DNA from: Oerskovia jenensis
GTDB lineage: Bacteria > Actinomycetota > Actinomycetes > Actinomycetales > Cellulomonadaceae
Direction of reading: 5' to 3'
DNA: 64,000 bases
Assembly (NCBI RefSeq): GCF_016907235.1
Contig: NZ_JAFBBO010000001.1
Coordinates: 1,736,001 to 1,800,000 of the forward strand
Part shown: positions 14,518 to 53,688 of the stretch, piece after piece
Position numbering within the stretch: position 1 is the first letter of the stretch
Layout of the letters: the number at the start of each line of letters is the position of its first letter
The notes under the pieces: generated by a model
Database searches by the model: none
What the model saw: the letters and a program-made list of their open reading frames with translations, nothing else
Told to the model about the DNA's origin: nothing
Program-made: the position numbers and the translations under genes

Positions 14518-14600
14518 ACGAGCACGAGGTTGCGCGCGGTCGAACCCGGCGATCGAGGCCGTGACGACCGCCGGAACGGCGTCAACCCCGTTCTCGGCAC
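14518..14600. repeat. Dispersed palindromic repeat, family A copy 1
   Basis: Right arm CAACCCCGTTCTCGGCAC (14583-14600) pairs with GAGCACGAGGTTG (14520-14532); an inner pair GAGGCCGT/ACGGCGTC lies between. It aligns over about 80 bp with copy A5 at 53610-53688. It lies 30 bp beyond the stop of the second Gfo/Idh gene. Confidence 0.75.
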
Positions 14601-14631
14601 GGGGAGGTCCACGGGGAGGTACCCGTGGAGG

Positions 14632-15666
14632 TCACTCGCCCGGGTAGACGACCCCCAGCTGCGCGCGGGCCGTGTCCATGACCCGCATCAGGTCGAGCGT
14701 GTCCTGCCACGTCATCCGCGGGCTCTCGGTCAGGCCCTCCGCGAGGCACCGAGCGACCTCGGCCGCCTCGTACTGCTTGGCCCCCGTTGCATACCCGTCG
14801 TACTCGCGCCGCGCCCCGTCGGCCCACACCACGCTGAACGTCGTGGGCACCATGAACCGGTCCACGACCTCGATCCGGCCCCCCGTGCCCGCGACCACGA
14901 GCGACGCCGCGGACTGCGCCAGGACCGACGAGGTCAGTGTCGCCGTCGCACGGTCCCCGTACCGCAGCACGACGGTCGACTGCGCGTCCACCCCGGTGGG
15001 AGCCTGCAGGCCGACGGCCGTGACGTCGTCGGGCCTGCCCAGGAGGTCCGTCGCGAACGCGAGCGGGTAGATCCCGATGTCCAGCAGCGCGCCGCCCGCG
15101 AGCTCGGGCGCGAAGAGCCGGTGCGACGGGTCGTACGCCGCGCGCGAGCCGTACGTCGCCGTGACCGACCGGACCTCGCCGATCTCCCCCTGGGCGATCA
15201 GCGCGCGGATCGCCGCGACGTGCGGCAGGTGCCGCGTCAGCATGGCCTCCATGACGAACACGCCCGCGGCCTGCGCCGCGGCCAGGACCTCGCGCGCCTC
15301 GCCCTCGTTGCGCGTGAACGCCTTCTCCATGAGGACCGGCTTGCCCGCCGCGATCGCCAGCAGCCCGTGGTCGCGGTGGTGCGAGTGCGGCGTCGCGACG
15401 TACACGACGTCGACGTCGGGGTCCGCGACGAGCGACGCGTACGACCCGTGCACGGTCGCCGACGGTGCGTGCCGCTGCGCGAAGTCACGTGCCCGGTGCT
15501 CGTCGCGCGATCCCACGGCCGCGACGTGCCCCTGCGTGAACGTCCGGACCTCGTCCGCGAACGTCCCGGCGATCTTCCCCGCCCCGAGGACGCCCCAGCG
15601 CACGGGCGGCGCGTCACCCGGATCGGGCACGGCGCCGAGCACGTTCACCACTGCGTGAGAGACCAT
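14632..15666 (-). CDS. Gfo/Idh/MocA-family oxidoreductase (copy 2)
   Basis: 344 residues. The motif order is the same as in copy 1: VRWGVLGAGKIAGTFADEVR, VDVVYVATPHSHHRDHGLLAI, PVLMEKAFTRNEGEAREVL and GGALLDIGIYPLAFATDLLG. It lacks the long N-terminal extension of copy 1. The shared EKAFTRN motif and ending (copy 1 LDVMRTMDEVRRQTGVVYPGE versus here LDLMRVMDTARAQLGVVYPGE) show recent duplication. Substrate unknown; enzymes of this subgroup are often annotated as dihydrodiol/D-xylose dehydrogenase-like. The ATG at 15666 is downstream of a strong hairpin that ends the upstream LAXTG gene, so it probably has its own promoter. Confidence 0.9.
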   Translation of the reverse strand: MVSHAVVNVLGAVPDPGDAPPVRWGVLGAGKIAGTFADEVRTFTQGHVAAVGSRDEHRARDFAQRHAPSATVHGSYASLVADPDVDVVYVATPHSHHRDHGLLAIAAGKPVLMEKAFTRNEGEAREVLAAAQAAGVFVMEAMLTRHLPHVAAIRALIAQGEIGEVRSVTATYGSRAAYDPSHRLFAPELAGGALLDIGIYPLAFATDLLGRPDDVTAVGLQAPTGVDAQSTVVLRYGDRATATLTSSVLAQSAASLVVAGTGGRIEVVDRFMVPTTFSVVWADGARREYDGYATGAKQYEAAEVARCLAEGLTESPRMTWQDTLDLMRVMDTARAQLGVVYPGE

Positions 15667-15678
15667 GCGTCCACGCTA

Positions 15679-15717
15679 CTGCGGCCCCGGGGTGGACCGG
15701 CCACCCCGGGGCCGCAG
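15679..15717 (-). terminator. Hairpin terminator of the LAXTG protein gene
   Basis: Perfect 17-bp stem (15679-15695 with 15701-15717; core GCGGCCCCGGGGTGG) with a 5-nt loop, 15 bp past the stop codon of the wall-anchored protein gene and before the Gfo/Idh start. There is no T-run. Confidence 0.75.
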
Positions 15718-15731
15718 CCCGCGCGCCGCGA

Positions 15732-17363: not shown

Positions 17364-17548
17364 GATGGGCTCCTCGGGTCGTGCCCGGCGGGCAGGGGGG
17401 TCGAGCCGTCGGGTCGCACGGGCGGGTGGTCCGTGGTACCGGTGAAGACCTCCCCTGTCCGCGGTCTTGACGCGAGACGTCACCGATGTGTCGCACGTCA
17501 CCCGTCCCCGGGGCCACGATGGAGACCTTCCGACCGAAGGGAGCTCCG

Positions 17549-20961: not shown

Positions 20962-21116
20962 CGCTCCTCGTCTCGGACCGCGGGACGACGGCGGACGTCA
21001 CACGGCCCCACCGGGCGCCGCGCCCGACTCCGACATAGCGTCGAGAGGTCGCCGGTCCCACGGAGCGACCCTCCACGGCCCGACGACGTCCCGCCCGTTC
21101 TCCGAGGAGGTCACCC

Positions 21117-22262: not shown

Positions 22263-22267
22263 GGTTC

Positions 22268-22328
22268 CGCACGACGAAGGCCCCGGGCCGCTCCCTCACG
22301 GGGGCAGGTCCGGGGCCTTCGTCGTGCG
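22268..22328. terminator. Bidirectional terminator between gldA and topA
   Basis: Perfect 19-bp inverted repeat: CGCACGACGAAGGCCCCGG (22268-22286) pairs with 22310-22328, separated by 23 nt. It begins 6 bp past the gldA stop and lies 48 bp past the topA stop, so it can serve both convergent genes. Confidence 0.8.
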
Positions 22329-22375
22329 CGGAGCCGCCTCGGCAGCCGTCGGTGTCCGCCGCCGAGCCGTGACCG

Positions 22376-25183: not shown

Positions 25184-25440
25184 CCGTTCCTGCTTTCCGT
25201 TGCTGCTGGTGTGGCTCTCGCCCGGAGCGATCTCCGGGTGGGCCGAGGTGCTGGGGGTGGGCTACGGCGTCGGGCAGGGCGTGGCGCTGGACCCCACCGT
25301 CTCGTTCCCACCGGCAGCCTATGACGTTACGCCACTGGCGCCAGGCGGCACCTTATCCGTTGTGGACAGCCCTCGTGACCGGGGCTCGTGGTCGTCCGGG
25401 ACGCCGGGCGCGACACCGTGACCGGACCTGTGGACGACCG

Positions 25441-28928: not shown

Positions 28929-28932
28929 CTTC

Positions 28933-37287: not shown

Positions 37288-37331
37288 GAACAGCACAGGC
37301 GCGGCCGAGACACCGCGCGCACCATGGACCC

Positions 37332-38174: not shown

Positions 38175-38177
38175 CGC

Positions 38178-39869
38178 GTGACCTCACCCCGGGCGTCGCT
38201 CACCGCACGGCCGCGCACGCTGCGCAGGCAGCTCGTCGTGGTCCTCGTCGGCATCCTGCTCGTGCTCAGCGTCGCGCTCGCGGTCAGCTCGACGCTGGCC
38301 CTGCGCACGAGCCTGGTCGACCGTCTCGACGACGAGCTCGTCCAGGCGAGCCAGCGCGCCGAGCGCGGCCCCTTCGACCGTCCTGGCGACGGAACGCCCC
38401 CCGCCCAGGACCCGGGCGCCGGGACCTCCCCGGGCGAGGCGCCGTCGTCGGGCACGGGGAACGACGATCCCCTGCCGCCCGGGCAGGGCGCAGGGACCGT
38501 CAACGTCGTCTACTCGGGCGGCGAGGTGCAGTTCGCCGGGTACGTCGACGACCGGGGCGACCGCCGCGAGCTCGACGCCACGCAGATCGCCGAGCTCGAG
38601 TCGGTCCCCGCGGACGGGAAGCCGCACGACGTCGAGGTCACCGACCTCGGGACGTTCCGCGCCATCTCCACGACGACCGAGCGCGGCGAACCGTCGATCA
38701 CCGCCATGAGCACGGCCTCGGTGACGCAGACCCTCGAAGGATTCCTCCTCGTCGAGGTGCTGCTCGCAGCGGTCGGGATCGCGCTCGCGTCGGTGCTCGG
38801 CACGTGGCTCGTCCGCCGCTCGCTGCGCCCGCTCGACTCGCTCGCCGACGCCGCCGTGCACGTGTCCGAGCTGCCGCTCGACCGCGGCGAGGTCGGCGAG
38901 ATCCCGCGCGTCGACGAGCAGTTCACGGACGAGCGCACCGAGGTCGGCCAGGTGGGGGCCGCGCTCAACCGCATGCTCGACCACGTCGAGGCGTCGCTCA
39001 CCGCGCGCCACGAGTCCGAGACGCAGGTCCGCCAGTTCGTCGCCGACGCGAGCCACGAGCTGCGCACGCCCCTCGCGTCGATCCGCGGGTACTCGGAGCT
39101 CGTGCGCCGCTCCCCCGACCAGGTCCCGCCCGACACCCTGCGCGCGCTCGACCGCATCGAGTCCGAGGCGCTGCGCATGGGCGACCTCGTCGAGGACCTG
39201 CTCCTGCTCGCCCGGCTCGACGCGGGCAGGCCGCTCGACCGGGAGCCCGTGGACCTCGCGGCGCTCGCGATCGACGCGGTCGCCGACGCGCACGCGGCCG
39301 GCCGCGACCACGTGTGGGAGCTGGACCTGCCGGTGGCCGAGAGTGACGGCCCGGTGCTCGACGGTGACGAGGCTGCCGCCGAGGGCGACGTGCTGTGGGC
39401 CGACGGCGACGACACGTTCGACCTCCCCGACGTCACGGTCGTGGGCGACGAGGCACGGCTGCGTCAGGTCTTCGCGAACCTGCTGGGCAACGCCCGCGTC
39501 CACACCCCGCCGGGCACGCGGGTGGTCGTGAGCGTCCGGCCCGACGGCGAGGACCACGTCGTCCTGTCGGTGACCGACGACGGCCCCGGTATCCCGGCCT
39601 CGCTCCGGCCGTCGTTGTTCCAACGGTTCAGCCGCGGGGACTCGGCGCGCAACCGGGTCGGGGGCTCGACGGGGCTGGGCCTCGCGATCGCGCAGGCCGT
39701 GGTCCAGGCGCACGGCGGCGAGATCACGGTGCGCGACGCGGCGGCGACGAACCTCGCCCGGCCGAGCCCTACGGGCACGGGAGCCGACGACGCGGGCCCG
39801 GCTCCGTCGTCGGGCACGACGTTCGAGGTCCGCCTGCCCCGTTCCCTCGGGGGCCGAGAACGGGGTTGA
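38178..39869 (+). CDS. Sensor histidine kinase, partner of the adjacent regulator
   Basis: 563 residues from GTG 38178. Two membrane helices (LVVVLVGILLVLSVALAV and FLLVEVLLAAVGIALASVLG) flank an extracytoplasmic region of about 150 residues with a Pro/Gly/Asp-rich insert. HAMP follows, then HisKA with His293 in ASHELRTPLASIRGYSEL, N-box NLLGNARVHTP, G1 DDGPGIP, F-box RFSRGD and G2 GSTGLGLAI. It has an acidic insert before the N-box (DEAAAEGDVLWADGDDTFDL). Its last codons and stop lie in palindromic repeat A2. TrcS-like architecture; stimulus unknown. Confidence 0.93.
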   Translation: MTSPRASLTARPRTLRRQLVVVLVGILLVLSVALAVSSTLALRTSLVDRLDDELVQASQRAERGPFDRPGDGTPPAQDPGAGTSPGEAPSSGTGNDDPLPPGQGAGTVNVVYSGGEVQFAGYVDDRGDRRELDATQIAELESVPADGKPHDVEVTDLGTFRAISTTTERGEPSITAMSTASVTQTLEGFLLVEVLLAAVGIALASVLGTWLVRRSLRPLDSLADAAVHVSELPLDRGEVGEIPRVDEQFTDERTEVGQVGAALNRMLDHVEASLTARHESETQVRQFVADASHELRTPLASIRGYSELVRRSPDQVPPDTLRALDRIESEALRMGDLVEDLLLLARLDAGRPLDREPVDLAALAIDAVADAHAAGRDHVWELDLPVAESDGPVLDGDEAAAEGDVLWADGDDTFDLPDVTVVGDEARLRQVFANLLGNARVHTPPGTRVVVSVRPDGEDHVVLSVTDDGPGIPASLRPSLFQRFSRGDSARNRVGGSTGLGLAIAQAVVQAHGGEITVRDAAATNLARPSPTGTGADDAGPAPSSGTTFEVRLPRSLGGRERG

Positions 39870-39911
39870 GGTCGTCATCCGTCGGACAACGGCCTCAACC
39901 CCGTTCTCGGC
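39853..39911. repeat. Dispersed palindromic repeat, family A copy 2
   Basis: Arms 39853-39875 and 39889-39911 pair at 22 of 23 positions (core GAGAACGGGGTTGAGG), with a 13-nt loop. It contains the histidine kinase stop codon and ends 16 bp past the jetC stop, so it could terminate both convergent genes. Confidence 0.85.
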
Positions 39912-39927
39912 ACCCGAGACGTGCCGG

Positions 39928-43401: not shown

Positions 43402-44183
43402 CAGGACTCCTCGTGGGTCGTGCCGGTGCCGGGCTCGGTGCCGAGCATGCGGTAGGCGTCGGATTCAGGCCCGTTCTCGACGTCAACCGCATGCTCGGCC
43501 TGCGACAAACGCATGGTCAGCGCACCCACGGGCGCTCCGCCGTCGGGCACGGGCGCTCCCCCGTCGCGCGACGCGAGCTCGGCCGCGTACTCCGCGAGGC
43601 GCGCGTCGAAGTCCGCGAGCCACTGCCCGTCGACGAACGCCTTGAGGATGCGGCGCACCTCGTACGTGTCCGGGGTGTCGGGCACGGGGCGCAGGAAGCC
43701 GAGCTCGACCACGCGGCGCACGTTGGCCTCGACGCGGTCGCGCGCGCGGGCCTCGTTGCTGGACCCGGGCAGGAAGACCTTGACGAGGTCCACGATCTCG
43801 TCGCGCGTCAGGACCAGGCGCGTGTCGCCGCCCTCGGAGTCGAACTGCGCGAGGCGCTTGCGCAGCAGCGCGAGCAGCAGGCTCACGTCGAACGACAGCT
43901 CGCGGCGCGCGACGAGGCGCGGGATGAACGTGCCGTCGTGCTCGTCCTCGGGCTGCGCACGCAGGTACGCGTACCCCTCGGACTCGTCGATCACGATCTC
44001 CAGGCCCAGCGTCGCGACGAAGTCCCGCGCCTGCGCCTCGAGCGCGAGCAGGTCGCGCCACGTGCGCGTGCCCGCCTCGCGGTAGACGACGCCCTTGACG
44101 AGCGAGGTCACGACGAGCGAGAGCTCGGGGCTGGGCCCACCGGTCTGCCCGGGACGTTCGGTCCGGACGGGCTGCTGGCTCAC
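43401..44183 (-). CDS. jetB: Wadjet/MksE-like accessory protein JetB (DUF4194)
   Basis: 260 residues from GTG 44183, overlapping the jetA stop (GTGA). Winged-helix features of MksE/JetB KITE subunits are seen: SLVVTSLVKGVVYREAG, SFDVSLLLALLRKRLAQFD and LVLTRDEIVDLVKVFLPG, followed by DRVEANVRRVVELGFLRP and YEVRRILKAFVDGQWLADF. The final about 35 residues (from LSQAEHAVDVENGPE) are encoded by palindromic repeat B1 and are probably not part of the conserved fold. JetB bridges the JetA kleisin and the JetC heads. Confidence 0.9.
   Translation of the reverse strand: MSQQPVRTERPGQTGGPSPELSLVVTSLVKGVVYREAGTRTWRDLLALEAQARDFVATLGLEIVIDESEGYAYLRAQPEDEHDGTFIPRLVARRELSFDVSLLLALLRKRLAQFDSEGGDTRLVLTRDEIVDLVKVFLPGSSNEARARDRVEANVRRVVELGFLRPVPDTPDTYEVRRILKAFVDGQWLADFDARLAEYAAELASRDGGAPVPDGGAPVGALTMRLSQAEHAVDVENGPESDAYRMLGTEPGTGTTHEES
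43441..43498. repeat. Dispersed palindromic repeat, family B copy 1, inside jetB
   Basis: CCGAGCATGCGGTAGGCGTC (43441-43460) pairs at 18 of 20 positions with 43479-43498, loop 18 nt. Unlike the other copies it lies within a coding region, the 3' end of jetB, where it is translated in frame. Confidence 0.85.
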
Positions 44184-46045
44184 GGGGTTCCCTCCTGGGG
44201 AGACGGCTGGTCGGACGGCGGGCTGGGCGGGGCGGTCGGCTGGTCGGGTGCGGCGGGCGGCGCCTGCGCGAGCGAGCGGGCGACCGCGCCCGCGAGGTCC
44301 TTGGCCCCCGTCCGGGCGAACGTGACCCGTGGGACGCGCGCGACGCGCACGCGCGGCCCGGTGGGCCTCGCGCGAGACCCGTCGTCCTCCTCGGCAGGGG
44401 CGACCAGGGCCTCGGGGCCGCCGGCGGCCTCGCCCTCCTCGGCGACGGGCGCCCCGCCAAGGCCGCTCGGCACCAGGGCGTCCACGTCGTCCACGACCCA
44501 CCGCACCTCGTCCGTGTGCGCGGGGTCGTGCACGACGGCGAAGCGCGGGTCGTCGAGCGACAGGTACGTCACGAGCTCCGCGAGCCCCTGCTCGAGCGGG
44601 TTCTCCTCGACGAGCTGCGCGAGCGAGACCTGGCCCCGGCGTCGCAGCGCATCGCGGACCGTGCGGCTCAGACGCTCGGGGTCGACGTGGACCTGCGTGA
44701 ACAGGGCCGACGCGTCGAAGTCCGCGACGCCCGCGGTCACGCCCTCGCTCGCGAGCGGCTCCTGGTGCTGGGGCCGGTAGAGGGGGCGCTCGGTCGGCAG
44801 GTGCACGTCGACCGAGGTCGCGTCCATGGTCGTCGCGAGCGGTCCGGTCTCCGCCGCGCCGAGCCGCAGGCGGTCGGGGACGTCCCGCAGCGCGAGGGCG
44901 CGCGACTCGATGCTGCGGAGCACGTCGATCACGCGCCGGTTCTCGAGCCACACCTGGTCGTCGAGGAAGCGGCGCAGCTGCTCGGACAGGACGCGCACGG
45001 TCGACTGCGTGCGCTCGCCCGCGTCGAGCCAGTCGTAGTGGATGCGGCGCAGGCGGCGCCCGGCGGCGCGGCCGGTGACCCCGGGGCCCTCGTCGTCGTC
45101 CCCGACCTGCTCCTCCAGCGCGGGCAGCGACTGGACCTTCTCGACGAGCTCGGCGAACTCCTCCTGCCGCTGGCGGTCCAGGAGGAAGTCGTAGAACGCG
45201 TGGAAGCTGCGGCCCTGGTCCGAGTCCGCGATCGCGGACCTGCTCCCGACGACCGCGTCCAGCAGGTCGCCCTTGGCCCCGTCCCAGCCCGTGATGCGCT
45301 CGCGCATCTCGCGGTCGAGGTTCCGGAAGTTCGCCTCGACCTCGCGGAAGTCCGCGAGCAGGTCCGCGGCCGTGCCCGTGAGCTGCTGGTAGCGGTCGCG
45401 CTGGGCGGCCGCGTCGAGCAACGAGAGCTGGCCCGCGCGCACGCGCTCGATCTCCTCCTCGATCCGCGCGCGTCGCGCCTCGAGCTCGCGCAGGCGTGCG
45501 TCGGCGTCGGACTCGGTGCCGACCGTGAGCTGACGCAGCAGCTCGAAGACCGTGTTGAGGCGCGACTCCGTGCCCACGAAGCTGCGCTCCCGCAGCGCCG
45601 AGACCCACGAGACGGCCTTCTCGACGGCCGGGGTCGCGTCGTAGTGCGCCTCCTCCGAGCCCGTCGGGTAGAACTTGCGCAGCCAACCCTGCTCGGGTGC
45701 GGACCAGTGGTCGAGGTACGCCTTGGGCGCGCGCGGGTACCTGCGTCCCCCGGCCGGGGGCTGCGCTTCGGCGTCCGCCCCCTCCTGCCCGACGACGTCG
45801 CTCCCCACCGCGGGCTCGTCCCCCTCCGGGGCGGGCCGGGGTTGCGCGCGGGCGGGTCGGTCCGGGCCGTCGATCGCGTACAGCGCGTCGTCGAGGAGAG
45901 AGACCAGCTCGGCCTCACCGATCGAGCGGACGTTCTGCTCGACGAAGACGGTGCCGAGGAAGCTCAGCGCGAGCGGCGCGTTGTCCGAGCGCAGGAGACG
46001 CCAGGCGGGGGTGCGCCGCAGGGCGTCGATGTCGTCGTGCTGCAC
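44180..46045 (-). CDS. jetA: Wadjet kleisin-like subunit JetA (DUF3375)
   Basis: 621 residues from GTG 46045. It has DUF3375 features: DALRRTPAWRLLRSDNAPL at the N-terminus, DHWSAPEQGWLRKFYPTGSEE, helical SFVGTESRLNTVFELLRQL and coiled coil RLRELEARRARIEEEIERVR, then GRSFHAFYDFLLDRQRQEEF. Two low-complexity inserts stand out (about 80-110 and the Pro/Ala-rich C-terminal 90 residues). JetA is the kleisin that closes the JetC ring. It is first gene of the jetABC operon; the upstream 264 bp are the divergent promoter region with the membrane-protein gene. Confidence 0.92.
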   Translation of the reverse strand: MQHDDIDALRRTPAWRLLRSDNAPLALSFLGTVFVEQNVRSIGEAELVSLLDDALYAIDGPDRPARAQPRPAPEGDEPAVGSDVVGQEGADAEAQPPAGGRRYPRAPKAYLDHWSAPEQGWLRKFYPTGSEEAHYDATPAVEKAVSWVSALRERSFVGTESRLNTVFELLRQLTVGTESDADARLRELEARRARIEEEIERVRAGQLSLLDAAAQRDRYQQLTGTAADLLADFREVEANFRNLDREMRERITGWDGAKGDLLDAVVGSRSAIADSDQGRSFHAFYDFLLDRQRQEEFAELVEKVQSLPALEEQVGDDDEGPGVTGRAAGRRLRRIHYDWLDAGERTQSTVRVLSEQLRRFLDDQVWLENRRVIDVLRSIESRALALRDVPDRLRLGAAETGPLATTMDATSVDVHLPTERPLYRPQHQEPLASEGVTAGVADFDASALFTQVHVDPERLSRTVRDALRRRGQVSLAQLVEENPLEQGLAELVTYLSLDDPRFAVVHDPAHTDEVRWVVDDVDALVPSGLGGAPVAEEGEAAGGPEALVAPAEEDDGSRARPTGPRVRVARVPRVTFARTGAKDLAGAVARSLAQAPPAAPDQPTAPPSPPSDQPSPQEGTP

Positions 46046-46309
46046 TCAGGCCCTCTCGCGCGTGCTTGTTCGGTGCCGACCGGTGGCTGGGTCGTGCGCC
46101 GGTCGGGGCGGTTGCTGCAAGGAGTCGCACGATCAGCCGCACCGAGCATCCTAGGCGCCGGGTCCCACGATCCAGGGATCGGCACGGTCGTGAGGCGCAC
46201 CCCGTCCCGCCGCCGCGGACCTCCGTCGAGGCGCTCCGTCGAACGATGTACGCGCGGCGAGCGAAGATCGCCGAGGTGGGCGACGCCGTCGGGCGGGCGC
46301 TCGACCAGC

Positions 46310-47068
46310 ATGGACACCATGTCGAGCCTCCTGGAGAACCCGCTGGTCCTGCTGATCCTCGCGTGCGAGGTCGGCTTCTGGGTCGTGCTCGCCGCGGGGC
46401 TGATCACGCGATACGTGCTGCGGCGACAGCGCGTGAGCACGGTCCTGCTGCTCAGCGTGCCGCTCATCGACCTGCTGCTCGTGACCGTATCGATCGCGGA
46501 CGTCGCGAGCGGGTCGCCGCCCGAGGCCGTGCACGGGCTCGCGGCCGTCTACCTGGGGTTCACGGTGGCTTTCGGGCACTCGATCGTCTCGTGGGCCGAC
46601 GTCCGCGCCGCGCACTGGTTCGGCGACGGGCCGGCCCCCGTCAAGCCGCCCAAGGACGGCCTGGCGGGGCTCGTGCACGAGATGCGAGAGCTCGGCAAGG
46701 CGCTGATCGCCGCAGTCATCGCGCTCGGAGTCATCAGCACCCTGTCGGTCGTCGCGGGCGACGGCCTGCTCCCGCCCGCGCAGTGGCCGGGCGACCCGCT
46801 GTGGGGCTGGGCGCTGCGGGTCTCGATCGTGCTCGGGGCGTGGGTCGTGTTCGGTCCCGTGTGGGTGCTGCTGGGGCTCGGGAGCGACGCGAAGGACGCG
46901 GGTGCCGGGCGGGGCGAGGTGCCGGACCCCGTGGACCTCGCCGGGCCGGCTGCGGACCGCGCCGGGGACTCGACGATCCCGGCGGACTCAGTGGGTGGCT
47001 ACCGGTCGGACGGGGCGAACGGCTCGAACGGCGGGCTGTCGCCGAACCGGTCGAACGTGTCGAGGTAG
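46310..47068 (+). CDS. Conserved membrane protein with five predicted helices
   Basis: 252 residues from ATG 46310 (ATG 46319 is an alternative). Hydrophobic segments: PLVLLILACEVGFWVVLAAG, VLLLSVPLIDLLLVTVSIAD, LAAVYLGFTVAFGHSIVSW, LIAAVIALGVISTLSVVAG and VSIVLGAWVVFGPVWVLLGL. The motif GHSIVSWADVRAAHWFGDG with a Pro-Lys-rich loop after it (PAPVKPPKDG) is typical of an uncharacterised actinobacterial membrane family. The C-terminal tail is Gly/Ser/Asn-rich. Function unknown. Its last 70 bp overlap the convergent next gene. Confidence 0.75.
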   Translation: MDTMSSLLENPLVLLILACEVGFWVVLAAGLITRYVLRRQRVSTVLLLSVPLIDLLLVTVSIADVASGSPPEAVHGLAAVYLGFTVAFGHSIVSWADVRAAHWFGDGPAPVKPPKDGLAGLVHEMRELGKALIAAVIALGVISTLSVVAGDGLLPPAQWPGDPLWGWALRVSIVLGAWVVFGPVWVLLGLGSDAKDAGAGRGEVPDPVDLAGPAADRAGDSTIPADSVGGYRSDGANGSNGGLSPNRSNVSR

Positions 47069-47583
47069 CGCGACGCCCACGACACACGGGTGATCTCGTC
47101 GAGCCCGAACCACTTCGGAGCCACCTCCCAGTGTCCGGCCGTGTCGAGGAACCACAGGCCGAGGCCCTCTCCCGTCAGTCCCTCGACCGCCCCGGGAAAG
47201 TACTCACCGGGCGACGTCCGCTCGGCGTGCACGGCGAGCAGGCGGCTCGCGCGGGCGACCGACCGCACGACCCCTTCGACGGAGGCGAGGTCGACGGCGA
47301 GGTCCGGTAGCGGGACCGGCCACGTCCCGAGCCCGGATGCGGCTCGCTCGACGAAACGTTGGTCCGAGCGCCGCGCACGACGGACCCGCGTGACGTCGTC
47401 GGTCCTGATCGCCTCGTAGCCGTCGGTGTGAGCCCGGTCCGCCAACGACCCGACGAGCGTCCAGTGCCCCGTCGCGAGCACCACCCCCTCCAGCAGGTCG
47501 GTGTCGGGGCCCAGGGTGCGGCGGTGGACCGTAACGACGACGCCGGTCGTGCGTGCCTCGTCGAGGGAGATCGTGCGGGACAT
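46999..47583 (-). CDS. Hypothetical protein, about 194 aa
   Basis: From ATG 47583 (an ATG at 47613 adds ten residues; neither has a strong ribosome-binding site). The product starts MSRTISLDEARTTGVVVTVHR and has TLGPDTDLLEGVVLATGHWT and TGEGLGLWFLDTAGHWEVAP, an alpha/beta pattern without signal or membrane segments. I do not recognise a family. The 3' end overlaps the convergent membrane protein gene by 70 bp (46999-47068). Confidence 0.6.
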   Translation of the reverse strand: MSRTISLDEARTTGVVVTVHRRTLGPDTDLLEGVVLATGHWTLVGSLADRAHTDGYEAIRTDDVTRVRRARRSDQRFVERAASGLGTWPVPLPDLAVDLASVEGVVRSVARASRLLAVHAERTSPGEYFPGAVEGLTGEGLGLWFLDTAGHWEVAPKWFGLDEITRVSWASRYLDTFDRFGDSPPFEPFAPSDR

Positions 47584-47681
47584 GCCCGGAGCGTAGCGGC
47601 CGCGGTTCGCCATCGGGAGCGCATTCTCCGCGACCGGTGCGCCGAGGCCGCCCGCGACCGCCCGTGACGACGGCGCCCTGG

Positions 47682-47762
47682 CCGAGCATGCGGTGGGCGT
47701 CAGTCGAGCATGCCGTTGTCGTCCGATCCGGGCCGGATTCCGACCACAACCGCATGTTCGGC
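47682..47762. repeat. Dispersed palindromic repeat, family B copy 2
   Basis: Half-copy CCGAGCATGCGGTGGGCGTC (47682-47701), then arms 47703-47726 and 47739-47762 pairing at 19 of 24 positions with a 12-nt loop. It lies 56 bp upstream of the next stop codon on the plus coordinate, i.e. downstream of the minus-strand end of the kinase-like gene is at 47819. Confidence 0.75.
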
Positions 47763-47818
47763 AGCCGGACCGGGCAGGCCGGGTGGTGCGGGTCGAGGCT
47801 GGGTGCGGGACGGGCTGA

Positions 47819-48325
47819 TCAGACGTCGAGCCAGTCCTTGGCCGCGGCCAGCAGCTCGGCGTCGTCGAGCGAGGCGTCGAGCCGCGCCCTTGGGTCGGTC
47901 CAGGCCGCGAGCGCCCGGGCGCGGTCGGCGAGCGAGTCCCACCCGGGCTCGGGCAGCGCCGGGTAGCGCGAGCCGCGAGTCACGAGACGCTCGCGGTGCA
48001 GCCCCTCGTCCGCGAGGTACACCTCGACGAACCAGAGCCGGGTGCCGACCCGCGTCGCGAGGTCGACCCACTGCTGACGGGCCGCGGGGTGGTCGTTGAC
48101 CGCGTCGACGATCACCGCGTTGCCCAGGAGCAGGTTCTCCTCGGCCGCTGCCTCGACGGCGAGGTACGCGCCCAGGCCGGTGACGTCGTCGTGCACCGCC
48201 CCTGCTCGCAGGAACGCGTCCTCGACGGGGTCGACGCTGAGCATCACCGCCCTCAGGTCGCGCGCGAGGAGGCGCGCGAGTCGACTCTTGCCGGTTCCGG
48301 GCAGTCCCGCCATGGCGATCAGCAC
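47819..48325 (-). CDS. P-loop kinase-like protein (AAA_33/zeta-like)
   Basis: 168 residues from GTG 48325. The P-loop is LIAMAGLPGTGKSRLARLLA, followed by VMLSVDPVEDAFLRAGAV, NAVIVDAVNDHPAARQQWV, WFVEVYLADEGLHRERLVTR and DPRARLDASLDDAELL. This is the small ATP-dependent nucleoside/sugar-kinase-like AAA_33 family, as in gluconate- or chloramphenicol phosphotransferase-like proteins. The frame is open further to 48418, but that part comes from the palindromic repeat A3 and has no ribosome-binding site. Substrate unknown. Confidence 0.78.
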   Translation of the reverse strand: MLIAMAGLPGTGKSRLARLLARDLRAVMLSVDPVEDAFLRAGAVHDDVTGLGAYLAVEAAAEENLLLGNAVIVDAVNDHPAARQQWVDLATRVGTRLWFVEVYLADEGLHRERLVTRGSRYPALPEPGWDSLADRARALAAWTDPRARLDASLDDAELLAAAKDWLDV

Positions 48326-48392
48326 GATCGAGAGACTAGGCCCTTGCCGACCGCGCGGCCCGCCGAACGCGCCAACGTCGTCCGTCGAAGGT

Positions 48393-48451
48393 GCCGAGAA
48401 CGACGTCGAGGCCGCCACGGGACCGCCAGCGACCTCAACCCCGTTCTCGAC
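48393..48451. repeat. Dispersed palindromic repeat, family A copy 3
   Basis: Arms 48393-48415 and 48429-48451 pair at 18 of 23 positions with a 13-nt loop; right arm includes CCTCAACCCCGTTCTCG. It ends 19 bp past the stop of the upstream hypothetical gene (48471). Confidence 0.8.
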
Positions 48452-48470
48452 CGACGCCCCGACGTCCTCG

Positions 48471-49142
48471 TCAGTGCTCCGCCGCGACGTAGGTCAGCCC
48501 GGCCGGTCCCACGACGAGATGCGCCCGGTCCCGTGGAGCGGCGGGAGCGAGCCGGTCCGGCCCGTCCACGCCGTCGCCGTCGCCCGCGACCTCGAACCCG
48601 ATCACGGCGCGACGGAACGGGACGGTCCGGTGCACCGAGCGACCGACTCCGGCCAGCCATTCGTCGAGGGGGCGGCGCCAGGTGAGGGACTCGGCCCCCG
48701 AGCGGTCGTCGAACGGGAACCCGTCGACCTCGACACCGCCGGCGTCGAGCCCCGCGAGGGGAAGGTGGAGGACCAACCAGTCGAGGTCCACGACGTCGAG
48801 GCCAGAGCCCGAACCGCGAGCGTCGCCGTCGTCGCGCTCACCCCGAAGGAGCAGGATCCCGCACGAGGACTCGCCACCACCGGGAAGGCGCACCACGCCG
48901 CGCAGGTGCGCCCCTCGGACGAGCGCCCCACCGGCGGCCCGGACCGCCGCCCGGTCCTCCGAGGCCACACGGGCCTCGACCGTGCCGTCGACGACCGTGA
49001 GGCGGGAGAGGCCGACGGCGGCGACGAGGGCGGCGACCCGGTCGTCGAGGCGGTCGTCGTCGGCGCGCCCCACCAGCAGGGCGAGCTCGTAGAAACCCCC
49101 CGCCCAGTGCCGAGGGCTCATCGGGTCGTCGCGTCGAGTCAT
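48471..49142 (-). CDS. Hypothetical protein, 223 aa
   Basis: From ATG 49142 (ATG 49121 in SPRHWAGGFYELALLVG is an alternative). The first part, HWAGGFYELALLVGRADDDR and VAALVAAVGLSRLTVVDGT, is a small alpha/beta domain; the second has GILLLRGERDDGDARGSGSG and VVDLDWLVLHLPLAGLDAG, with ESLTWRRPLDEWLAGVGRSV near the end. No signal peptide, membrane segment or known motif. It lies between palindromic repeats A3 and A4. I cannot assign a function. Confidence 0.55.
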   Translation of the reverse strand: MTRRDDPMSPRHWAGGFYELALLVGRADDDRLDDRVAALVAAVGLSRLTVVDGTVEARVASEDRAAVRAAGGALVRGAHLRGVVRLPGGGESSCGILLLRGERDDGDARGSGSGLDVVDLDWLVLHLPLAGLDAGGVEVDGFPFDDRSGAESLTWRRPLDEWLAGVGRSVHRTVPFRRAVIGFEVAGDGDGVDGPDRLAPAAPRDRAHLVVGPAGLTYVAAEH

Positions 49143-49219
49143 GGGACGACGATGCAGGGTGCGAGGCACTGTGTCCACGGACCGTGCCGATCGACCACGC
49201 CGTCGTCGTCGCCGCACGT

Positions 49220-49279
49220 GCCGAGAACGAGGCCGAGGCCGCCACCGGACCGGTGGCGACCTCGACCCCCGTTCTCGAC
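49220..49279. repeat. Dispersed palindromic repeat, family A copy 4
   Basis: Arms 49220-49242 and 49256-49279 (one extra base in the right arm) with a 13-nt loop CACCGGACCGGTG that is itself nearly self-complementary. It lies 11 bp past the protease stop codon (49291), consistent with a terminator role. Confidence 0.8.
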
Positions 49280-49290
49280 CGAGGCCGCTG

Positions 49291-50778
49291 CTACGGCGTC
49301 GTCGCTCCCAGCGTGTACGCGCCGGAGCCCGCGTACGCGTTCACCGCGTACCGGTAGTACCCGGCGGTGCCGGTGTACGTGAGCGCCTCCGCGGCGCCGG
49401 AGGACGTCGACTGCGCGACGTTCGCCCACGCGGAACCGTTCCACTTCTGCAGGTACAGGTCGAGGTCCGTGCCGGCCGGACCGCTCAGGCACACGCGGTG
49501 CACCCCGCTGTTCTGGACCGTGACGTACGAGCCGTTCGGCTGGGCGACCGTGGCTCCGGCCGAGACGCTGCCCTGGTAGGTCCGCGCATAGCCCGGGCAC
49601 CCGGCCGGCGGCGGCTCGTTGCCCCCTCCGCCCGAGGTCACGAGCGTGAGGCCGTAGGCCGAGAGCGCCTCGTTGACGGGCTGGAAGTACGTCGTGCCGC
49701 CCGACGAGCAGTTGCCCGACCCGCCCGACGTCAGGCCCTGTGCCTGGTTGCCCGCGAGGAGCGAGCCGCCCGAGTCGCCCGGCTCGGCGCACACGTTGGT
49801 GCGGATGAGCCCCGAGACGGTCCCCTGCGGGTACGTCACCGAGCTGTTGTAGGCCGCGATCGTGCCGCAGCGCCAGCCCGTCGTGGAACCGGACCGGCAG
49901 ACCGAGGAACCCACGGGTGCGGCCGTCGAGCCCGCGACCGCGACGCGTCCACCGCTGTAGTTGTTGACGGCCCCGACCGGGGTGTTCCCCGCGTCGACCT
50001 GCACCCAGGCGTAGTCGTTGCCGGGGAAGCTCGACCCGCGGAACGTGCCGCCCGGCCCCGAGGTGCGGGTGCCCACCGTCCCGCAGTGGCCTGCGGTGAC
50101 GAAGCCGCCGTTCACCGCGAAGCCCACCGAGCAGCGGCCACCTGAGCCCATGGTGTACGCGTTGCCGCCCACCACGTCGATCAGCGGACGGGGATCCTCG
50201 GTCGTGGTCACGTAGGTGATGGCGTCGGCGGGCACGCCTGCGTCCGCGGCCGCTTGTTCGGCGAGGGCGCGGCCGTCGTCGTGCACGTTGACGACGACCT
50301 GGTTGGTCGTGACGTCGACGTACCAGCTCGGGACCGCGGCCGGGTCGGTGAGCTCGCCGTCGAGCGCCGCCTTCCACGTGTCGAGCTCGGCGAGCGTGTG
50401 GTCGACGACCACGGGCGTCGCGCCTGCCGCACGGACCTCCTGGGTCTCGGTACCGTCGGCGACGCCCACGTACAGGGTGTTCTTCGCGGGGTCGACCCAG
50501 GCGCCCGCGTAGGCGTCCAGGCTCTCGGCGAGAGAGTCCTCGGTGCTCGCCGCGTCGGACTGGAACGCCAGACGCTTCGTCGCGTCCTTGGCGCTCAGCC
50601 CCAGGTCGCGCTGGAGGGCGCGCAGCACCTCGGGCGCGACCTTCGGGGAGGTCTGGGGAGAAACGGTCGGGGTGTCGGGGGTGGGCGGCGCCGCGTTCGC
50701 GGTGAGCGCCGCAGGTCCGGCCACGAGTGCCGTCGCGGCGCACGCCGTGGCGAGCGTCTTCCAGAGTGATCGTGCCAT
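49291..50778 (-). CDS. Secreted trypsin-like serine protease (alpha-lytic/69B4 type) with C-terminal PPC domain
   Basis: 495 residues. The signal peptide is residues 1-30 (LATACAATALVAGPAALTANAA). An alpha-lytic-type prodomain (about 40-195: VLRALQRDLGLSAKDATKRL) acts as a folding chaperone. The mature domain (from about 199) starts LIDVVGGNAYTM and has the triad His231 (TAGHC), Asp255 (NDYAWV) and Ser336 (GDSGGS) with six Cys likely in three disulphides. It resembles the Cellulomonas 69B4-type alkaline protease (SFPGNDYA, TVCAEPGDSGGSLLAGNQAQ-like). A Gly/Pro linker leads to a C-terminal PPC beta-domain (394-495). It is downstream of a LysR gene on the same strand. Confidence 0.95.
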   Translation of the reverse strand: MARSLWKTLATACAATALVAGPAALTANAAPPTPDTPTVSPQTSPKVAPEVLRALQRDLGLSAKDATKRLAFQSDAASTEDSLAESLDAYAGAWVDPAKNTLYVGVADGTETQEVRAAGATPVVVDHTLAELDTWKAALDGELTDPAAVPSWYVDVTTNQVVVNVHDDGRALAEQAAADAGVPADAITYVTTTEDPRPLIDVVGGNAYTMGSGGRCSVGFAVNGGFVTAGHCGTVGTRTSGPGGTFRGSSFPGNDYAWVQVDAGNTPVGAVNNYSGGRVAVAGSTAAPVGSSVCRSGSTTGWRCGTIAAYNSSVTYPQGTVSGLIRTNVCAEPGDSGGSLLAGNQAQGLTSGGSGNCSSGGTTYFQPVNEALSAYGLTLVTSGGGGNEPPPAGCPGYARTYQGSVSAGATVAQPNGSYVTVQNSGVHRVCLSGPAGTDLDLYLQKWNGSAWANVAQSTSSGAAEALTYTGTAGYYRYAVNAYAGSGAYTLGATTP

Positions 50779-50881
50779 CTCGATGTCCCTTCGTCGGGTC
50801 CCGGGATCGCCGGGCGAACGAGGCTCACGCTAGGGAGCGGGACGTGGGCGGCACAGATGGCAACCTGGGCATATCGGAGCG

Positions 50882-51835
50882 TTATGTGAGGGTCTCCCCG
50901 TAGGCGTCGAGCCAGCACAGGTAGCGCGGGCTGCGGCTCGCGGCGTCGTGGTGGGAGCGGACGGCGGCGTCGACGAGCACCTCGACGGGCAGGTGCGCCG
51001 AGCCGCTGCGCCAGCCCACGTAGTGCGCCCAGCGCAGGGGCGCACCGTCGAGCGGCACGACCTGCGTGCCCGGGGTGTCGGGGAACGTCGGCTGGACCAG
51101 GGCGACCGCGTGCCCGGCCTGGACGAGGTCGATCACGGTCGGGCGGTCGGCCTCGCTCAGGCCCGACGGCGTGAAGCCCGCCCGCGCGCACGCCTGCGCG
51201 AAGCAGCGCTCGAAGCACCCCTCCCCGGGCCCGCTGAGCCACACCTCGTCGGCGAGCTCGCCCAGGGCGACCGACGGACGGTCTGCGTGCCGGTGCCCTG
51301 CGGGGACGAGCACGAACACGGGGTCGACGTCGACACGCCACCACGCGACCCCTCCCGTCGTGGGCGGGGTCGCGTCCGAGCACAGGCCCACGAGCGCGAC
51401 GTCGAGCGTGCCTGCCGCGAGCTGCTGCGCGGTGTCGTCCACGGACCAGCTCGTCGCGGTCGTGAGCCGGACGTCGGGCAGGGCCGTGACGAGCCGGTGC
51501 ACGAAGCGGCCCGCGAGGGCGCTCGCCACGGTCCCGACCCGCAGCGTCCCCGGGCCGTCCTCGTCCCGGTTGACGTGCTGCTGGACGTCGTCGAGCAGCG
51601 AGGTCATGGCGGGCAGCACCATGCGGGCGCGGCCCAGGACGAGCTCACCGAGGGCCGTGGGGTGGGCACCGCGCTGGTCCCGGGTGAAGACCTGTCCGCC
51701 GAGCGCACGGTCGATGCGGTTGAGCTGCGCGGTCAGCGCGGGCTGCGCGATCCCGAGGGCCGCCGCGGCCCGCGTCACACTCCCCTGGTCCGCGACGGCC
51801 ACGATCAGCCGCAGGTGACGGAGCTCGAGGTCCAT
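50882..51835 (-). CDS. LysR-family transcriptional regulator
   Basis: 317 residues from ATG 51835. The N-terminal winged helix is LELRHLRLIVAVADQGSVTR, then AALGIAQPALTAQLNRIDRA. The substrate domain has TLRVGTVASALAGRFVHRLV, DVALVGLCSDATPPTTGGV and SEADRPTVIDLVQAGHAVAL. It is 103 bp upstream of and co-directional with the secreted protease gene; the frame open further upstream runs into repeat B3. It may control the protease or the divergent DUF2867/TetR genes (uncertain). Confidence 0.88.
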   Translation of the reverse strand: MDLELRHLRLIVAVADQGSVTRAAAALGIAQPALTAQLNRIDRALGGQVFTRDQRGAHPTALGELVLGRARMVLPAMTSLLDDVQQHVNRDEDGPGTLRVGTVASALAGRFVHRLVTALPDVRLTTATSWSVDDTAQQLAAGTLDVALVGLCSDATPPTTGGVAWWRVDVDPVFVLVPAGHRHADRPSVALGELADEVWLSGPGEGCFERCFAQACARAGFTPSGLSEADRPTVIDLVQAGHAVALVQPTFPDTPGTQVVPLDGAPLRWAHYVGWRSGSAHLPVEVLVDAAVRSHHDAASRSPRYLCWLDAYGETLT

Positions 51836-51916
51836 GCGCCCGAAACTAGCGCGGCGGGTGACGTTTCGCGCCTCGTCGGGGGTGGCCGGTTGCCGCGCCG
51901 CAGGCCCCCTTGCGCT

Positions 51917-51996
51917 GCCGAGCATGCGGTTGCTGTCGGTCGAGCATGCGGTTGGCGTCGAGAATCGGCGGTTTCGAGACGCCAACCGCATGCTCG
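51917..51996. repeat. Dispersed palindromic repeat, family B copy 3
   Basis: Half-copy CCGAGCATGCGGTTGCTGTC (51918-51937), then CGAGCATGCGGTTGGCGTC (51941-51959) pairing perfectly (19 of 19) with 51978-51996; loop 18 nt. It starts 17 bp beyond the stop of the DUF2867 gene (52014). Confidence 0.88.
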
Positions 51997-52013
51997 GGAA
52001 CGAAGGGGAGGGT

Positions 52014-52478
52014 TCAGCCGAGGCGGCGGGCGGCCCCGCGGAGCATCGCCCTGAGCACGGGTCCGTGAGCCAGGCGCACCGGGACGAAGTAGGCGCGCCC
52101 CCTCCAGCCGTGCAGGCGCACGACGGTCGTGACGCGCACGAGGCGAGCGGCGCCGTCGACCCCTACCGCGCAGCGGAAGTCCAGGTGCGTGTCGTCCGCG
52201 ACGATGAGCGCCTCCTCTCCCTCGACGCGCGAGACGTCGAAGACGTCCCGGTCCGCGGGGCGCACCCCGATGAGCGGGACGAGGACCTGTCGGAGCCCCA
52301 GCGCGACGCGTACCCACAGGGGCGTCGAGCGGACGTCGAAGATCGCGCGGGCCCAGGTCGCCGGGTCGGTCGTCGCACGGGCCGGCAGGGGGACGACGAC
52401 GACGTCCGCGTGGTCGGGCTGCGGGACGTCCTCGAACGCGAGCGAGGAGAAGTGCGGCTTCACGGGTGCTGCGGTCAT
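52014..52478 (-). CDS. DUF2867-family protein
   Basis: 154 residues from ATG 52478. It begins with a helical stretch (DYADVV-like PDHADVVVVPLPARATTDPA), then WARAIFDVRSTPLWVRVALG and the SRPBCC-like beta sheet VFDVSRVEGEEALIVADDTH, DFRCAVGVDGAARLVRVTTVVR, ending YFVPVRLAHGPVLRAMLRGA. This is the DUF2867 (lipid or hydrophobic-ligand-binding fold) pattern. Function unknown. It is divergent from a TetR gene across two perfect operator copies, so it is probably the regulated target. Confidence 0.75.
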   Translation of the reverse strand: MTAAPVKPHFSSLAFEDVPQPDHADVVVVPLPARATTDPATWARAIFDVRSTPLWVRVALGLRQVLVPLIGVRPADRDVFDVSRVEGEEALIVADDTHLDFRCAVGVDGAARLVRVTTVVRLHGWRGRAYFVPVRLAHGPVLRAMLRGAARRLG

Positions 52479-52501
52479 GGGAACGCCTTCCTCGAACCGG
52501 A

Positions 52502-52544
52502 TCCGTACGCCACCGTACGGACACTCCGTACGGTAGCGTACGGA
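52502..52544. promoter_or_regulatory. Two perfect tandem TetR operators
   Basis: Two 20-bp copies of TCCGTACG-N4-CGTACGGA, at 52502-52521 (spacer CCAC) and 52525-52544 (spacer GTAG), separated by 3 bp (centres 23 bp apart). All arms are identical and perfectly symmetric. The second ends 2 bp before the TetR ATG at 52547, and both lie between the divergent DUF2867 and TetR genes. Binding by the adjacent TetR is inferred. Confidence 0.8.
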
Positions 52545-52546
52545 GC

Positions 52547-53113
52547 ATGCCGCCGACCACCCGCCTCGACGCCGCCGCCTGGGTCGACGCCGCCTACGAC
52601 GCGTTCACGACCGCCGGGCTCGACGCCGTCAAGGTCGAGCCCGTCGCGCGCGCGCTCGGCGCGACCAAGGGGTCGTTCTACTGGCACTTCGCCGACCGGC
52701 AGGCCCTCGTCGACGCCGTCCTCGCCCGCTGGGAGGCCGAGACCGCGCGGATCGTCGAGGAGGTCGAGGCCACGCCCGGCAGTCCCGCGGACCAGCTCGC
52801 CGCGCTCTTCACGGCGGTCACGCGCCGCCGCTCGCCCCGGACGGGCGAGCAGCTCCTCTACGCGCAGACCGACCTCCCGGGCGTCGCCGAGGCCATGTCC
52901 CGCGTCACGGCCCGACGGCTCGACGTCGTCACGCGCCTCCTGCGGTCGGCGGGTTTCACGCCCGCCGAGGCCCGGGCGCGCGCGACCATCGCGCTCGCGA
53001 CCGTCGTGGGAGCCGAGCACCTGACGCTCGCGACCCCGGAGCTGGCGCCCACCGGGGACGACGCCCGCACCGTGCGCGAGCTGAGCCTCGCGATGATCCT
53101 CGGGCGGGACTGA
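52547..53113 (+). CDS. TetR-family regulator, divergent from the DUF2867 gene
   Basis: 188 residues from ATG 52547. N-terminal helix-turn-helix: AAYDAFTTAGLDAVKVEPVA, then RALGATKGSFYWHFADRQALV. The ligand-binding domain is short (about 130 residues) with EQLLYAQTDLPGVAEAMSRV and GFTPAEARARATIALATVVG. The ATG is directly after two perfect operator copies, so it is probably self-repressed and controls the DUF2867 gene. The signal molecule is unknown; this shape is common in regulators of hydrophobic-compound responses. Confidence 0.88.
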   Translation: MPPTTRLDAAAWVDAAYDAFTTAGLDAVKVEPVARALGATKGSFYWHFADRQALVDAVLARWEAETARIVEEVEATPGSPADQLAALFTAVTRRRSPRTGEQLLYAQTDLPGVAEAMSRVTARRLDVVTRLLRSAGFTPAEARARATIALATVVGAEHLTLATPELAPTGDDARTVRELSLAMILGRD

Positions 53114-53135
53114 CGGGGGCCGAGCGGGGTGCGGA

Positions 53136-53552
53136 TCAGCCGCCCTGGGCCGCGACCTCGGCGTCGCTGCGCAGGATGCAGAACTCGTTGCCCTCGGGGT
53201 CCGCGAGCGTGATCCACCCGGAGCCGTCGGGGCGTCTGTGGTCGGCGAGCCTGGTCGCCCCCAGGCCGACGAGCCGTTCGACCTCCTGCTCGCGCGTCCC
53301 GTCGGTGGGCCGCAGGTCCAGGTGGAGCCGGTTCTTGATCTCCTTGCCCTCCGGGACCTCGATGAACAGCAGGCGCCCGCGGGACTCGGCGGGGGCGTCG
53401 GCGCCCGCGGGCGGGAAGATCATGCACTCCTCGTGGCCGGGCAGGTTCGGGTCGTCGGGGTCCTCGACGTAGCCGAGGACCCCGCGCCACCAGACCGACT
53501 GCGCGTGGGCGTCGCGGGCGTCGAACGTCGTGTGCTGGATGCGAGAGGTCAT
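53136..53552 (-). CDS. VOC-superfamily (glyoxalase-like) protein
   Basis: 138 residues. Typical VOC repeats: TTFDARDAHAQSVWWRGVLG and EGKEIKNRLHLDLRPTDGTR, with RLADHRRPDGSGWITLADPEG and GNEFCILR at the end. The HLDLRP and DPEGNEF motifs mark glyoxalase-like dioxygenase or resistance proteins. The metal site has His in RLHLD and Glu in NEF; the first-repeat His (IQHTTFDA) is also present. The actual reaction is unknown. It converges with the TetR gene (22 bp between stops). Confidence 0.85.
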   Translation of the reverse strand: MTSRIQHTTFDARDAHAQSVWWRGVLGYVEDPDDPNLPGHEECMIFPPAGADAPAESRGRLLFIEVPEGKEIKNRLHLDLRPTDGTREQEVERLVGLGATRLADHRRPDGSGWITLADPEGNEFCILRSDAEVAAQGG

Positions 53553-53609
53553 GGGCTCAACCTAGGGAGGCGCGGCGCCCGCCGCACGGCCTTTCCGGTC
53601 GCTGCGGCC

Positions 53610-53688
53610 GACCACGAGGTTCCGTGCGGTCGAGCACGAGGTTGAGGCCGTCATCGCCGGGAGAACGGCCTCAACCCCGTGCTCGGCA
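53610..53688. repeat. Dispersed palindromic repeat, family A copy 5
   Basis: Half-copy GACCACGAGGTT (53610-53621), then arms 53631-53651 and 53665-53685 pairing at 20 of 21 positions (core CGAGCACGAGGTTGAGGCC) with a 13-nt loop. It is 21 bp past the stop of the methyltransferase gene (53710). Confidence 0.88.

Follow-up and report, generated by a model that had tools for sequence, protein, structure and literature searches.

REP-like repeats (repetitive extragenic palindromes) are usually explained by REP-associated tyrosine transposases (RAYTs), enzymes described mainly in phyla other than the Actinobacteria; these repeats and the related REPINs are short dispersed palindromes, mostly intergenic, with compound forms and several sequence types per genome. 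Palindromes may also be carried in frame inside proteins, as the Rickettsia palindromic elements are, and mycobacterial interspersed repetitive units are actinobacterial intergenic repeats that touch stop codons and are not palindromic. In Streptococcus pneumoniae the SPRITE, RUP and BOX repeats are small and dispersed, some of them terminator-like, and they cluster and lie side by side, as described in the consulted sections of PMC10969869. In an actinobacterium, Streptomyces clavuligerus, 3'-end mapping by term-seq gave 353 U-lacking structured RNA 3' ends against 182 U-rich ones, and the U-lacking ends have been likened to "I-shaped" terminators (PMC8269248, in its consulted sections). Here we describe a family of palindromes in Oerskovia, eight copies of which lie in a 64-kb window (72.8% GC; G000:C1:1736001-1800000, the whole stretch analysed) of a complete 4.45-Mb genome, G000. 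These eight palindromes are real, rigidly built and dispersed, they form one family, and its copies strongly favor the 3' ends of genes. Our best reading is of a RAYT-less palindrome of REP-like kind, dispersed and serving as a 3'-end hairpin: we consider it fairly probable that these are non-coding palindromes gained by copying and kept behind stop codons as 3'-end hairpins without a U-tract.

A first-pass annotation of the window had listed these eight palindromes as one family and had held that they are related copies, not unrelated terminators. All eight lie where it placed them, and both of its claims are borne out by a strict two-arm pattern that finds 15 copies in G000 and none in a reversed control, by covariation between the arms, and by matches to a covariance model, R1. 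The model was made from 19 G000 copies, including seven of the eight in the window (A1 was excluded). The whole-genome covariance search that the annotation had proposed gives at least 74 places in G000 at E<=0.0015 and one more at 0.15, a lower bound because 148 matches over both strands were among the 150 candidates scored. On the better strand the window copies have E-values of 1.2e-4 (A1), 3.1e-18 (A2), 6.9e-14 (B1), 4.5e-12 (B2), 5.2e-12 (A3), 4.0e-14 (A4), 1.2e-13 (B3) and 1.9e-16 (A5), which for all but A1 are partly so by construction, these copies being in the model. The R1 alignment of the 19 copies pairs 86.2% of cells, and 75 cells carry two-sided changes where shuffles average 30.4; none of 500 shuffles is as high. 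For further analysis we took 80 copies, namely the R1 places plus six weaker ones from a rescan of the 52 sources around them, some of which may not be members (L186:4554 and L203:3479, for example, are like neither of the types described below); two cut-off duplicates at the ends of L010 and L011 and three weak places (E 0.003-0.006) were excluded.

All seven Oerskovia genomes (G000 and its congeners G001-G006) carry R1 matches, at least 88-90 each over both strands with the best 90 scored. At E<=0.01 a match is present in 47 of 59 genomes, G000 included, and outside Oerskovia only four genomes have more than ten: G008 (11), G013 (32), G017 (42) and G027 (20). Within G000 the spread is uneven, with 371-kb bins holding from 2 to 18 of 74 copies and density peaks near 1.5-1.9 and 2.6-3.0 Mb. 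The annotation's remark that seven copies cluster in 14 kb also stands, since none of 5000 simulations under a uniform model that leaves out gene layout reaches this number. Membership in an Rfam RNA family was rejected: scanned against the curated models, the window gave no match at the gathering score. We found no PMC title or abstract opening that describes the present repeat, in searches that covered the longer result lists in part, and six arm strings used as literal text in PMC gave one match, an unrelated salmon paper.

The family is built from a 14-bp arm, CGAGNANGNGGTTG, with about 11 bases after it. Two such arms stand inverted, so that terminal inverted repeats, where seen in the 19-copy alignment, are the two arms themselves; by eye, in that alignment with four flanking bases added, GTGC/GCAC is frequent at the outer bases. 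Measured from CGAG to CTCG, 45 copies span 55 bp and 27 span 56 bp, together 72 of 80, and the rest measure 57 bp (2), 58 bp (2), 78 bp (2), and 42 and 45 bp (one each). Arms come in two types, A (AACGGGG, CACGAGG and similar) and B (CATGCGG), which divide the 80 copies into 48 A, 26 B and 6 untyped. When we searched 15-32 bp outside the hairpin, allowing up to two mismatches, 25 of the 80 copies proved to have a third arm, in direct orientation, exactly 22 bp outside and always matching the type of the hairpin itself (it is present in 18 of 26 B copies, in 7 of 48 A copies and in none of the 6 untyped). The "extra half-copy" that the annotation had seen in B2, B3 and A5 is thus this third arm, standing direct at exactly 22 bp. 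Its observation that A1 and A5 align over their full length likewise holds, because both are three-arm copies, A1 having a decayed middle arm in which 6 of 11 fixed core positions remain (counted by eye).

The 22-bp spacing recurs outside G000. Among direct arm pairs no more than 90 bp apart, compared there with at most one mismatch, it accounts for 53 of 62 pairs at 76 loci of other Oerskovia, 17 of 18 at 40 G005 loci and 4 of 5 at 5 Sediminihabitans loci. At nineteen Cellulosimicrobium loci most spans are 55 bp (18) and there are two direct pairs, spaced 22 and 17 bp; 5 Promicromonospora loci have spans of 55 bp (5) and 51 bp (1) and no direct pairs. The loci of these named genera are among the matches listed and were selected by the strict pattern, and so they tell of spacing and not of abundance; single matches of other lengths in unrelated organisms look like chance.

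With genes called by codon usage, gaps between genes hold 75 of the 80 copies, of which 27 are in convergent, 42 in tandem and 6 in divergent gaps; of the rest, 3 fall within coding sequence and 2 at locus edges. The same loci offer 32 convergent, 80 tandem and 36 divergent gaps of at least 70 bp, and the difference between convergent and divergent placement has p=3e-4. Within tandem gaps, 39 of 42 copies are closer to the upstream stop (median 20.5 bp) than to the next start (median 105.5 bp). In four copies the call of a neighbouring gene ends at one common position within the arm (offset -19), and in A2 a TGA is read there. The fold is very stable: all 96 gene-hairpin pairs lie below -23 kcal/mol (median -45.8), against 35 of 96 mononucleotide shuffles (median -21.6). 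Position and folding together make it plausible that the hairpins act as transcript 3'-end or terminator elements, the reuse that the annotation had suggested. They are not canonical intrinsic terminators, a candidate we rejected because a U-rich tail (at least 3 T in the 8 nt past the 63-nt element) is present in only 6 of 96 pairs and missing in 90, and because a terminator scan of 38000-56000 called none at any copy; counted directly past CTCG, at least 3 T in 8 nt occur in 3 of 96 pairs. Other gene-end hairpins, of unrelated sequence, are also present in the window.

Set beside the described systems, the family is like REP elements in kind and, by the tests made, is not a member. The copies are dispersed and intergenic, 75 of 80 lying in classified gene gaps; unlike REP and REPIN elements, the family comes without a RAYT that we could find and without a tag, has stems of about 20-28 bp instead of 6-13, keeps a fixed span of 55-58 bp, carries a third arm in 25 of 80 copies and occurs in Actinobacteria. 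It recalls the Rickettsia palindromic elements in that B1 is read in frame in the tail of a protein, and differs from them in that only 3 of 80 copies are called in coding sequence. Mycobacterial interspersed repetitive units, compared by description only, are alike in being intergenic and touching stops and differ in not being palindromic. The likeness to the pneumococcal repeats, also one of description, extends to all the traits listed above; SPRITE is Rho-independent terminator-like in the consulted sections of PMC10969869, whereas the Oerskovia hairpins mostly lack a U-tract. The U-lacking ends of S. clavuligerus share with them a GC-rich stable hairpin and fewer than 3 U downstream, and by the criteria in the consulted sections of PMC8269248 the Oerskovia hairpins would be "highly structured, U-lacking" ends; that class is set by fold and U count, whereas the Oerskovia copies share sequence and geometry. 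The phylum lists in the consulted sections of PMC3733652, a source on REP elements, omit Actinobacteria. What the Oerskovia family adds is thus a stricter geometry, attached to gene 3' ends with no RAYT found, in a phylum many of whose RNA 3' ends have no U-tract, and with it a defined motif set for seeking a copying enzyme and for testing U-less hairpins in GC-rich bacteria.

Gain, loss and switching of type are visible at orthologous sites. The comparison of occupied and empty sites that the annotation had suggested was made between species, with the window sites set against the six congeners (alignable sites differ by genome), and it turns up occupied sites as well as empty and deleted ones. 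At site A2 every one of the five congeners that align at both flanks has an element; G005 and G003 carry type B there, and G006, G004 and G001 share type A with G000. At site A5 G001 has a B element, against type A in five genomes, G000 among them. The B element of G000 at site B3 is matched by an A element in G002 and by empty sites in G005 and G003. The element at site B1 is present in G000, G003 and G001, reduced in G005 and G002 and absent from G006 and G004, that at B2 is absent from G006, and those at A3 and A4 are present in G005. Between G000 and G005, 51 of the 80 copies could be compared with both flanks, in stretches picked for carrying copies and hence giving no estimate of occupancy. 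At these 51 sites 41 copies keep their type (the B1 remnant counted), 3 are the same untyped hairpin, 4 have switched from A to B within flanks that are 94-98% identical, 2 are without the element and 1 is without clear assignment; in 30 of 46 cases no paralog is more similar than the ortholog. The site comparisons therefore indicate that most comparable copies were inherited and that some were lost, gained or replaced. Type switching at conserved sites makes copying testable by comparison of strains, and recombination, whether among copies or among strains, has to be reckoned with as another source of the switches.

Positions within the arms also change at unequal rates. When the 19-copy table of the genome itself decides which stem positions are fixed and which are free, one-sided changes against G005 fall at 17 of 315 fixed positions and at 44 of 280 that are free (35 pairs, p=2e-5), and over all 68 pairs at 24 of 612 fixed and 90 of 544 free positions, with p=3e-14, an optimistic value because pairs share ancestry and some loci duplicate one genome. 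An alternative split of the 68 pairs, whose free positions were chosen partly post hoc, gives 62 of 748 fixed against 59 of 272 free; by base, the fixed and free rates are 4.5% and 27.5% for A, 3.7% and 26% for G, 4.9% and 6.1% for T, and the order is reversed for C (19.5% and 16.4%). In a third split, of 34 G005 pairs, loops change at 14.5%, and indels in the same pairs number 32 in 1877 bases of core and 163 in 3672 bases of flank. Part of this pattern of constraint could stem from copies being rewritten from other members of the family.

A similar family is present in another actinobacterial genus, where distant R1 matches led to hairpins with CGATCATGAAGTTG-like arms. The class-wide R1 search, which is no census, has 19 of 246 genomes among the matches listed (best 21 candidates per genome), and several of these matches look like coding DNA or chance. 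The exact CGATCATGAAGTTG-type pattern occurs 27 times in G249 and twice each in G265 and G000, and is found in none of the other 243 of the 246 class genomes. Exact copies number from 0 to 34 per genome in the G249 genus, with 18 of 41 genomes carrying at least one. The 34 copies of G316 measure 57 bp (31) or 58 bp (3), and 15 are convergent, 15 tandem (13 of them closer to the stop), 3 divergent and 1 within a coding sequence; of gaps 70 bp or longer, these loci have 18 that are convergent, 30 tandem and 18 divergent. In 28 of the 34 (L300-L333) the loop holds one of three motifs, GGAGATC, ACAAA-CGGAC or GCGACACGCC, and hairpin length is nearly constant across them; in the 11 tandem copies with a motif the direction of the loop relative to the gene is mixed (7 same, 4 opposite). 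None of the 34 has a direct arm at 22 bp, and G265 has direct arms 30-32 bp apart in four pairs (4 loci, partly overlapping). From arm pattern, span and location we infer that the Oerskovia family and that of the G249 genus probably share descent.

How might such a family be made and kept? In the reading we favor, new copies would arrive as near-perfect palindromes through a copying process with a putative enzyme and would survive mainly behind stop codons, where the transcript would fold into a very stable hairpin and the mRNA 3' end could be fixed or protected, on both strands and without a U-tract. We think it most likely that a putative protein recognizes the arms at fixed spacing, and that any terminator-like role follows from the places in which copies persist. 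Several observations weigh against this reading. Selection against insertions elsewhere could be the source of the location bias. Two of five covariation measures are only moderate, with 15 pairs changed on both sides against 12.8 (reached by 42 of 500 shuffles) and 35 further pair types against 30.9 (31 of 500), and the modelled stem of the 19 copies is often open at its four outermost pairs. Since 41 of 51 copies keep their type in G005 and 3 more are the same untyped hairpin, copying must be rare. In vertical descent, one-sided changes prevail in 37 ungapped pairs (104, with a further 22 at unpaired places), an observation that tells against strong selection on perfect pairing and fits decay of once-perfect palindromes; two-sided changes number 16 with pairing kept (8 of them from one switched copy) and 15 without. 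Fixed positions in the third split change at 6.4%, near the 9.5% of the mixed coding and intergenic flanks. A mobilizing gene was not found, with no PF01797 (Y1_Tnp) match in any of the 14 genomes searched (13 carriers and G149, which lacks exact copies), nor was a target duplication seen in 72 copies, with boundaries set 0-13 bases out and lengths of 2-9. Finally, IMG/VR contigs have no exact strict match and PLSDB plasmids no match to one type-B query, and a viral or plasmid source is to that extent without support.

Some of these points bear equally on the alternatives. If the copies were REP or REPIN elements mobilized by a TnpA-REP tyrosine transposase of the IS200/IS605 kind, one would understand why they are dispersed, mostly intergenic, palindromic, often compound and clustered; a PF01797 search, which we take to cover RAYTs, is empty in 14 of 14 genomes, however, while control searches are positive in 5 of 14 named genomes, no GTAG or CGTC tag is seen by eye at the hairpin end in the 19-copy alignment, and the stems, at about 20-28 bp, exceed the 6-13 bp (GTAG) and 8-9 bp (CGTC) given in the consulted sections of PMC3733652. 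The RAYT route that the annotation had proposed as a check is thus unsupported, Pfam-detectable transposases are largely ruled out, and we regard this explanation as quite unlikely. The annotation's description of the elements as REP/MITE-like is right as to dispersed intergenic palindromes, and the RAYT, the tag and the target duplication that would go with it were not found. A minimal miniature inverted-repeat transposable element (MITE), with two terminal inverted repeats, sometimes a binding site 22 bp off, and a DDE transposon acting in trans, would account for the fixed spacing of inverted and direct 14-bp arms, which resembles a set of transposase binding sites, and for exact copy numbers that vary from 0 to 34 among congeners in the G249 genus. 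We find it doubtful, given that the duplication scan of 72 copies shows only a weak 2-base excess (its twelve best rows are all 2 bases long, the best having 24 against 15.6 expected), that exact matches on viral contigs are lacking, and that the 15 solitary ones of the 82 strict cores in G000 include a single facing pair within 20 kb, its members 14 kb apart. The best case for an insertion boundary, L138 of O. turbata, has about 140 extra bases around a three-arm B copy relative to G000 and G005 and no unambiguous target duplication. More tentatively than our favored reading, yet as a conceivable extension of it, a dedicated protein might read the 14-bp arms at spacings of 22 bp and 55-58 bp and write bidirectional hairpins behind genes, or convert a hairpin already there to a different sequence type, independently of RAYTs, in at least two actinobacterial families that differ in their arm words. 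A survey of neighbor-gene families (267 proteins) gave one cluster of 12 and two of 3, with no sign of a mobilizer.

Two further explanations were weighed. Ordinary terminators, alike only through GC-richness and selection on stems, would be expected behind stop codons and in convergent gaps and would fold very stably, as these copies do, and unrelated gene-end hairpins do exist in the window. As a full account this is refuted by sequence identity and spacing, that is, by 15 strict matches against none in the reversed control and by fixed lengths and the 22-bp arm, to which the unequal rates of stem positions and the 90 of 96 gene-hairpin pairs without 3 T in 8 nt may be added; we consider it unlikely as an explanation of the family, and it may still serve as a description of function. 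Uptake words in Neisseria and Haemophilus serve as terminators, and hairpins made of two inverted copies of one word invite the thought that an uptake or other signal word is paired here in the same way. Such a word should often stand alone, and at the strict core it rarely does: 67 of 82 are in or beside copies and 15 are solitary (4 in the reversed control), so that we rejected this candidate as very improbable.

A duplication elsewhere in G000 concerns a hairpin together with a gene. Near 1.30 and 2.41 Mb, L026:1491-1943 and L027:1492-1943 share a ferredoxin-like gene (so labelled by eye) and its hairpin at 97% identity over 453 bp. We rejected it as a hairpin-only transposition; the copy travels with the short gene and thus is no case of the hairpin moving by itself.

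The annotation had put most window copies 11-56 bp past minus-strand stops. Seven of the eight do lie at 9-54 bp, measured from the R1 match, and B1 does not, being inside the jetB frame. A2 (39855..39909, two arms, 55 bp) lies between convergent genes, of which the kinase gene 38178-39869(+) ends at the TGA within its left arm and jetC (39928-43401, -) has its stop 14 bp from the R1 match. B1 (43442..43497, two arms, 56 bp, with a possible decayed third arm on the right at 3 mismatches) lies within jetB (43401-44183, -), behind the DUF4194 domain. B2 (47683..47760) has three arms, at 47683, 47705 (22 bp apart) and, inverted, 47747, and its R1 match is 54 bp from the stop of the gene at 47819-48325(-). 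A3 (48395..48449, two arms, 55 bp) is 17 bp, from its R1 match, from the stop of 48471-49121(-), and A4 (49222..49277, two arms, 56 bp, with one base inserted in the right arm) is 9 bp, measured likewise, from that of 49291-50778(-). The remaining copies all have three arms. In B3 (51919..51996) these stand at 51919, 51941 (22 bp apart) and, inverted, 51983, and the stop of 52014-52478(-) is 13 bp from the R1 match; in A5 (53609..53685) they stand at 53609, 53631 (22 bp apart) and, inverted, 53672, and 20 bp separate the R1 match from the stop of 53710-55296(-). A1 (14519..14596, 78 bp) has its outer arm at 14519-14532, the decayed middle arm at 14541-14554 and the right arm at 14583-14596; its R1 match, 14515-14600, is 31 bp from the stop of the gene at 14632-15666(-).

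Some neighboring genes deserve mention in their own right. The region 39928-46045 is a Wadjet/Mks-like operon, jetA-jetB-jetC, on the minus strand (PADLOC JetA1, JetB1 and JetC1), and none of the seven proteins scanned there matched JetD. In JetB (43401-44183) the B1 element is read in frame in the C-terminal tail; it is missing from two congeners and reduced in two. At 13347-15666 the window holds two adjacent tandem oxidoreductase paralogues of the GFO/IDH/MocA kind, which share 84% DNA identity over one 262-bp stretch.

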